DNA of 23,802 bases from a virus. Under the pieces are notes generated by a model. That model had not been told where the DNA came from, made no database searches, and saw nothing but the letters and a program-made list of their open reading frames with translations. Positions 14,098 through 14,605 of the stretch are shown piece by piece. The position numbers and the translations under genes were made by a program. Numbering within the stretch: position 1 is the stretch's first letter; each line of letters begins with the position of its first letter. The DNA lies in IMG/VR virus record IMGVR_UViG_3300025674_000395, positions 1 through 23,802 of that record, one strand, 5' to 3'.

Positions 14098-14517
14098 TTA
14101 CTTAATCTTAATTGTTTTTATTTTTTTCTCTTCAGGTAATTCTTCAAAGAGTTTAACTTTAAGAACTCCGTCTATAAAGTCAGCACCTTCTACTTTAATA
14201 TACTCTGAAAGAGTAAATTTTCTAACAACACTTCTAGATGCAATACCTTGATGTATTAAAGTATCGTTATCTTTATCTTCTTTCTTAGCACTAATTGTAA
14301 GTACACCATCTTGTAACTCACAGTTAATGTCTTTCTTAGAGAACCCAGCTAAAGCCATCTCTATTTGATACTGACCATCCTTAATTTTTCTTATATTATA
14401 AGGTGGAAAGTTAGAAGTGTTTATTTGTGAAACCTCATTTAGTGAATCAAACATTCTATCAAAACCGATAGAGAAGTTTTTAAATGGGTCAAAGTTTATT
14501 AAATTATATCGTGTCAT
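14098..14517 (-). CDS. IbpA-like small heat-shock protein (Hsp20)
   Basis: 139 residues. An ATP-independent holdase that keeps unfolding proteins soluble. The N-terminal part (NFDPFKNFSIGFDRMFDSLN) has the F-x-P and GFDR-(L/M)-F motifs of IbpA-type class A sHsps. The alpha-crystallin domain runs from about 39 to 126, starting FPPYNI and including MALAGFSKKDI, LIHQGIASRSVVRKF and DGVLKVKL. The C-terminal I-x-I anchor is Ile136-Lys-Ile138. It heads a - strand unit with its own perfect promoter and a thermometer-like leader. Hsp20 genes are known in some marine myoviruses; possible roles are capsid assembly or keeping the host working under stress. Confidence 0.95.
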   Translation of the reverse strand: MTRYNLINFDPFKNFSIGFDRMFDSLNEVSQINTSNFPPYNIRKIKDGQYQIEMALAGFSKKDINCELQDGVLTISAKKEDKDNDTLIHQGIASRSVVRKFTLSEYIKVEGADFIDGVLKVKLFEELPEEKKIKTIKIK

Positions 14518-14570
14518 TTGTTATCCTTTCGTTAAGCGATATTTATATGCAACCCCAAATGGGCGTTGCT
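14518..14570 (-). promoter_or_regulatory. ROSE-like RNA thermometer in the hsp20 5' leader
   Basis: Read on the - strand, the predicted leader is about 53 nt. Hairpin I (14549-14569) pairs GCAAC with GTTGC and CCC with GGG, with one bulged G and an ATTT loop. Hairpin II (14522-14541) pairs UAUC-CUU with AAGGAUA, with a bulged G and loop AACGA. Within it UCGCU lies opposite AGGA, the Shine-Dalgarno, which is six bases from the ATG. U(U/C)GCU facing AGGA with an unpaired G is the conserved signature of ROSE elements of rhizobial and enterobacterial sHsp genes. Confidence 0.7.
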
Positions 14571-14576
14571 TAGTAT

Positions 14577-14605
14577 ATTATAGAGAGAAATATCTTTAAT
14601 GTCAA
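14577..14605 (-). promoter_or_regulatory. Perfect sigma70 promoter for hsp20
   Basis: On the - strand, TTGACA (14605-14600), a 17-base spacer and TATAAT (14582-14577) match consensus at all 12 positions. The -35 box directly follows the TAG of the 1391-residue virion gene. RNA should start near 14570, at the base of the 5' hairpin of the hsp20 leader. Confidence 0.85.

Follow-up and report, generated by a model that had tools for sequence, protein, structure and literature searches.

A short two-hairpin ROSE-like leader RNA ahead of hsp20 genes in marine phages

Small heat-shock genes of many marine phages are preceded by a short leader RNA, for which we report structure, conservation, covariation and association with hsp20, taking as reference a 23.8 kb virus record (the whole stretch of DNA analysed, hereafter the window). 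The ROSE-like identity of this leader is strongly supported. In our view it probably acts as an RNA thermometer of the ROSE-like kind, in a short form with two hairpins; melting and temperature-dependent translation are inferred, and so is thermometer function, from close likeness to tested Pseudomonas elements. Elements of this kind are known; what appears to be new is how widely they occur in marine phages, with promoters exchanged.

The hsp20 leader of the window

The hsp20 product matches Pfam HSP20 (3.9e-15) and PHROG 432 (2.1e-38), and the genes around it code for a T7-like primase-helicase, a family A polymerase and a large glucosaminidase-domain protein. These neighbours mark the window as a phage of the SAR11 type, as do the closest isolates, which are Pelagibacter phages HTVC103P and HTVC104P at 81% identity. 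The hsp20 promoter (−35 TTGACA at 14605-14600, 17 nt spacer, −10 TATAAT at 14582-14577, minus strand) is the sole 12/12 match in the 2 kb scanned. Its expected +1 is at about 14570, so that the 5'UTR opens with hairpin I and the leader consists almost wholly of two hairpins (Table 1). Hairpin I is built of five pairs, bulged G14564, three pairs and an AUUU loop, and the bulge falls inside a Y[G]CY/RGG core that is also found in hairpin II. In hairpin II, UAUC-[G14537]-CUU pairs with AAG-GAUA (7 pairs, loop AACGA), with a modest predicted stability of −4.1 kcal/mol at 25 °C. The 16-mer UCGCUUAAYGAAAGGA, which spans motif, loop and Shine-Dalgarno (SD), occurs once in the window, where 0.09 occurrences would be expected even at three mismatches.

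A first-pass annotation of this DNA had described a perfect promoter, an IbpA-like hsp20, UCGCU opposite AGGA in a 7-pair hairpin with one bulged G (14522-14541) and a stable hairpin before it (14549-14569). Its coordinates all agree with the sequence, and the descriptions were borne out by the TTGACA-17-TATAAT match, the Pfam and PHROG assignments, the predicted fold (UCGCU at 14539-14535 facing AGGA at 14527-14524, G14537 unpaired) and hairpin I covariation (below).

Table 1. Features of the hsp20 region in the window
Feature	Position	Strand	Basis
sigma70-type promoter TTGACA-N17-TATAAT	14577..14605	-	12/12 consensus positions
5' untranslated leader, ~53 nt	14518..14570	-	sequence; start inferred from −10 box
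hairpin I, GCAAC[G]CCC AUUU GGGGUUGC	14549..14569	-	covariation; bulged-G hairpin in 77/80 leaders
hairpin II, ROSE-like, UAUC[G]CUU AACGA AAGGAUA, hides SD	14522..14541	-	fold; core pairs in relatives; covarying outer pairs
anti-SD UCGCU (ROSE motif U[U/C]GCU), bulged G14537	14535..14539	-	kept in relatives; 80/84 non-redundant leaders
Shine-Dalgarno AGGA	14524..14527	-	sequence; six bases 5' of ATG at 14517
hsp20, IbpA-like small heat-shock protein, 139 aa	14098..14517	-	Pfam, PHROG; alignment to E. coli IbpA

Two further features were observed around the gene. The −10 box of HTVC103P-like promoters sits within an inverted repeat (e.g., TTACTATAATATAGTAA), at 14590-14570 in the window and in relatives; its flanks covary between relatives, the repeat is weak in the window, and it is a possible operator. 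Between hsp20 and the next gene (14097-14032, minus strand), CTGGGC/GCCCAG could pair as a hairpin that would enclose TTGCT 5' of an SD, AAAGGA, with a geometry unlike that of ROSE elements.

Conservation, covariation and association with hsp20

The 16-nt core is kept among pelagiphages down to 50% protein identity, and core and loop are near-invariant within the window clade. Among 60 IMG/VR relatives found by protein, UCGCUUAA[C/U]GAAAGGA is unchanged in almost every readable leader, while the inner stem of hairpin I beside it varies by relative (CCC/GGG, CUC/GAG or UCC/GGA). In phage HTVC115P, whose protein is 50% identical, the 16 nt are intact, the flanking pair is C-G in place of A-U, and an unrelated hairpin takes the place of hairpin I.

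Searching with the window Hsp20 (tblastn) gave 508 phage records that hold an hsp20 relative, for only part of which leaders were read. For an unbiased set, viral contigs were scanned with a profile of other phage Hsp20s and leaders were chosen regardless of motif; a mixed profile (A1) was too diverse for the scan. U[U/C]GCU faces the SD in 71 of 75 readable leaders of phage hsp20 genes fetched by protein alone; SD quality partly guided the choice of start codons in this set, a criterion that gives the anti-SD no advantage. Across loci fetched by protein, the core precedes 91/99 hsp20 open reading frames (ORFs) compared to 6/284 other SD-bearing ORFs, and these six comprise two divergent hsp20s, two copies of the gene after hsp20, one small ORF preceding hsp20 and one phage dnaK. 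After redundancy removal, 80 of 84 phage hsp20 leaders have the core and four lack it; homologous leaders without the UYGCU/AGGA pairing had been named at first pass as grounds for refutation, which did not materialize. When viral contigs were matched to a DNA pattern of the tandem hairpins, hsp20 followed 103 of the 120 sites. Exact 16-mer matches in bacterial genomes were rejected as a statistic because their count is about that expected by chance for 257 Gb (our estimate); only six precede hsp20, including those of Serratia ibpB and Planktomarina, and they serve as illustration only. Viral 16-mer matches away from hsp20 were also set aside, because in some of them an ordinary SD simply comes after a stop codon (GCT TAA).

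Pairing was analysed separately for the two hairpins. Core pairs Y-G, C-G and U-A of hairpin II hold in all 80 motif-bearing leaders. Its MAFFT alignment was unusable because loop length varies, and it was analysed by anchoring on the motif: the first outer pair is C-G in 49 leaders, A-U in 9, and U-A and G-C in one each, with covariation above all 200 shuffles, and the second is U-A in 16 and A-U in 16 and is paired in only 40%. For hairpin I, 88.9% of cells are paired in a MAFFT alignment of 42 leaders, where 94 cells are changed on both sides (28.6 when shuffled, sd 6.1) and the covariation score is 0.637, compared to 0.203 for shuffled and at most 0.183 for slid controls. RNAalifold independently recovers hairpin I with compensatory changes in five of six pairs. 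Relatedness inflates covariation counts, and slid controls retain relatedness. Compensatory changes among related phage leaders, proposed at first pass as a check, are therefore present, with hairpin I covarying and hairpin II outer pairs co-changing (A-U/C-G).

Variants of the arrangement also occur. An extra AGAGA..TCTCT segment lies between the two hairpins in leaders L082, L092, L109 and L117, whose proteins are 38-40% identical. ROSE-like leaders precede phage dnaK genes at L536:5600-9627 and L343:1440-2438 (HSP70 1.5e-152 for L343), and L536 has the order tandem leader, dnaK, hsp20 and a short ORF that resembles ClpS, which makes a phage heat-shock cluster. A tandem ROSE-like leader lies 5' of a 65-76 aa ORF with hsp20 immediately after it in L497, L499, L526, L532 and L568 (also L400:717), so some elements head a two-gene unit; no convincing Pfam match was found for these small ORFs.

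ROSE membership, predicted melting and a possible Hsp20 site

ROSE-like elements are defined by U(U/C)GCU imperfectly paired with the SD in a 3'-proximal hairpin, a bulged G inside the motif and at least one further stable upstream hairpin (two to four hairpins in all), typically ahead of a small heat-shock gene; the SD hairpin melts and translation rises with temperature (PMC3669281, PMC11342760). The window leader meets the criteria of motif, bulge, SD pairing, upstream hairpin and gene, as the first-pass reading of a ROSE-like element had it. The fourU criterion is not met, the anti-SD being UCGCUU rather than four consecutive U. The Rfam covariance-model check proposed at first pass was negative: RF00435, RF01832 and RF02523 stayed below threshold, with no match at E up to 10 for the window or the leader alone, and the Rfam scan of either gave only chance hits. 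The leader is therefore not filed under an Rfam family. In controls, E. coli ibpA scored 100 bits (ROSE_2) and a Pseudomonas-type leader (L313) 69 bits, while SAR11 ibpA leaders reached only 26-28 of the 43 bits needed; the Rfam ROSE models were found to be insensitive to AT-rich short forms.

The nearest known systems are the short ROSE-like elements of Pseudomonas ibpA (ROSE_3, RF02523), which are experimentally proven thermometers (PMC3669281). They share with the window leader two hairpins only, a stable hairpin I, U(U/C)GCU with a bulged G facing the SD in hairpin II, a 5'UTR of about 60 nt and a small heat-shock gene. The window leader differs in being AT-rich, phage-borne, transcribed from a sigma70 rather than a sigma32 promoter and below the Rfam threshold, and its function is inferred. 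It had been called much shorter than most ROSE elements; the Pseudomonas elements (61-62 nt; PMC3669281) match this shortness. E. coli ibpA (ROSE_2, RF01832) has the same SD hairpin logic (UCGCU..AGGAG), and the hairpin before its SD hairpin, UGUCCAUUGUGGA, recurs unchanged as hairpin I in relatives such as L010; its leader is longer with more hairpins, and ROSE_2 finds nothing in the window. Leaders of ibpA in SAR11 (the Pelagibacter family) have the two hairpins and the core but differ in a sigma32-like promoter and in UUGCU/AAGGAGG compared to UCGCU/AAGGAU in the window.

The first-pass annotation knew of no phage example. This does not hold for phage RNA thermometers as such, which are known for lambda cIII, SPbeta blyA and the sigma70 gene of a Caudoviricetes phage (PMC4166951, PMC11182007), the last two from a fourU-based search; it stands for ROSE-like elements, for which no earlier report in a phage was found in the open-access literature. 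Open-access papers yielded nothing relevant on thermometers in cyanophages or pelagiphages. All three known cases share temperature-controlled translation in a phage, which is inferred for the window leader. Lambda cIII is unlike it in being a two-state switch of opposite sign, and SPbeta blyA and phage sigma70 lack UYGCU and are not chaperone genes.

In the thermometer mechanism that we favour, anti-SD UCGCU would pair with AGGA around the bulged G at lower sea temperatures and block ribosome entry. Warming would loosen the weak, 7-pair hairpin II but leave the stronger hairpin I intact, and more chaperone would be translated. The sigma70-type promoter would stand in for the cell's heat-shock promoter, so that the phage would keep a post-transcriptional brake without sigma32 dependence. 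In the 5'UTR with its AUG, the predicted unpaired fraction of the SD is 0.02, 0.03, 0.06, 0.14 and 0.27 at 5, 15, 25, 37 and 45 °C; the mean over 84 phage leaders goes from 0.17 to 0.32, compared to 0.40 to 0.49 when the upstream part is shuffled. Proven thermometers rise no more in the same calculation (E. coli ibpA from 0.02 to 0.15 at 45 °C), which makes it only a rough guide. When 15 nt of coding sequence are included, the window RNA is predicted to prefer a helix AUAUCG/CGAUAU (codons 3-4) that leaves the SD about equally open (0.56-0.59) at all temperatures, and this predicted helix is the chief computational reason to doubt the copy in the window itself. HTVC103P with its coding sequence has no such helix, and its predicted SD opening goes from 0.03 to 0.34 at 45 °C, as expected. 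An ON helix between the anti-SD and codons 3-6 was considered as a conserved switch and rejected as unconvincing (complementarity of 4.9 nt compared to 4.5 nt with coding starts of other phages).

The modest predicted stability of hairpin II and an alternative helix that could free the SD leave room for a reading in which the leader does no more than provide an efficient and stable start of translation, with a non-regulatory hairpin II and a 5' hairpin that protects the mRNA. Stable 5' hairpins do protect mRNAs (discussed in PMC3669281), which fits. We nevertheless regard this as improbable because it leaves unexplained why an anti-SD faces the SD in hsp20 leaders and almost nowhere else, why flanking pairs covary, and why host ibpA and phage dnaK have the same element.

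The thermometer reading is itself challenged by the core and loop sequence, whose conservation goes beyond what melting alone needs. In hairpin I, the 5' arm is predicted by folding to bulge out a G in 63/80 leaders, compared to 22/2400 shuffled regions. A search for the best bulged-G hairpin finds one in 77 of 80 leaders, with Y[G]CY opposite RGG in 66 of these, which mirrors the hairpin II arrangement of Y[G]CU opposite AGG. The repeated core also occurs in SAR11 leaders and in the Pseudomonas-type leader, where hairpin I reads AU[G]CC..GGG. The function of the 5' hairpins of Pseudomonas elements is not fully understood (PMC3669281). No earlier description of the repetition was found in the literature; as far as we could find, the hairpin I repeat of the ROSE core is unreported.

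These observations bear on a reading in which the leader is mainly an Hsp20 binding site: free phage Hsp20 (or host IbpA) would bind the two bulged-G hairpins and block its own translation, and the mRNA would be set free once misfolded or aggregated protein engages the chaperone. Temperature would then act indirectly, and binding may combine with melting. The precedent is E. coli IbpA, which binds the ibpA leader and represses its own translation, with R93 irreplaceable and an aromatic residue needed at position 34 (PMC10474464). The system is alike in pairing a ROSE-type leader with a small heat-shock protein that has an R93-type arginine and an aromatic residue. Aligned to E. coli IbpA, the window Hsp20 has F at the Y34 position and R at the R93 position, which meets the residue criterion for such self-repression; R is present in 126 of 142 distinct phage Hsp20s with readable context, and Y or F occupies the other site in all those read. 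Near-invariance of core and loop within the clade also favours binding, as does retention of Y[G]CY/RGG in 66/77 leaders by hairpin I, which is SD-free and does not melt in Pseudomonas. On the other side, proteobacterial IbpAs commonly have R93 in any case, and a structural need may be what keeps it; nor does every protein encoded behind a ROSE-like leader have it, the exceptions including IbpB of E. coli and Serratia and the protein of phage C48C1. Leader binding has been shown only for gamma-proteobacterial IbpAs. The conserved arginine and aromatic residue and the repeated hairpin I core make protein binding a serious second mechanism, possibly together with melting, although without binding data we hold self-repression as the main role only tentatively. 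Melting and binding could be combined, so our confidence in the thermometer and in self-repression overlaps. A specific combination, a double sensor in which the Hsp20 of the phage itself binds both bulged-G hairpins (Y[G]CY/RGG) of a ROSE thermometer, likewise lacks binding data and is speculative and, in our judgement, rather unlikely. If true, heat and protein aggregation during virion production would both relieve Hsp20 self-repression, and hairpin I of ROSE elements, so far without an explained role, would supply the other half of an Hsp20 site.

Hosts, promoter exchange and significance

SAR11 genomes were located with a 16S probe, and Hsp20 is present in 53 of 79 genomes of the family. 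The SAR11 ibpA leaders that were read have the same two hairpins, with UUGCU and AAGGAGG, under promoters that are sigma32-like (CTTGAA...) in 29/30. A strong sigma70 promoter is present instead in all 19 HTVC103P-like relatives examined. Among T4-like relatives, 33 of 75 have the exact late motif TATAAATA, mostly 8-11 nt 5' of the hairpin I YGCY, and a phage late type is probably among the promoters exchanged. Promoters thus differ by group while the leader is the same, which makes the RNA the constant part and the promoter the exchanged one. Recent acquisition from a SAR11 host was rejected because a protein tree places the window Hsp20 clade outside SAR11 proteins.

Presence of the same element on bacterial ibpA genes could also mean that phages acquired it passively, as a relic that came with an hsp20 of proteobacterial origin. 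We disfavour this strongly and think it very unlikely, since the leaders of different phages have built up compensatory changes, the core persists even where the proteins share only 50% identity, and the element has outlasted promoter swaps without the frequent decay that a relic should show (4/84 leaders are without it).

In the picocyanobacterial family, Hsp20 occurs in 18 of 51 genomes, and the core was found in none of the plausible hsp20 leaders that were read. Cyanophages carry the core, unlike those host-family leaders. No Hsp20 was observed in 33 of the 51 genomes (the family of G518), mostly small ones, so many cyanophages may supply a small heat-shock protein that is absent from their hosts.

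Nearly every related phage chaperone gene that could be read bears a short folded leader RNA, and its response to temperature is inferred. With these findings ROSE-like control, known from bacteria, reaches a large number of marine phages, and a regulatory RNA is seen to persist through changes of promoter between the heat-shock type of the host, the sigma70 type and, probably, a late type of phages. The role of the unexplained first hairpin can now be probed with more than 80 distinct natural variants. If the inferred temperature response holds, the amount of chaperone that a phage makes would be expected to depend on the temperature of the sea.
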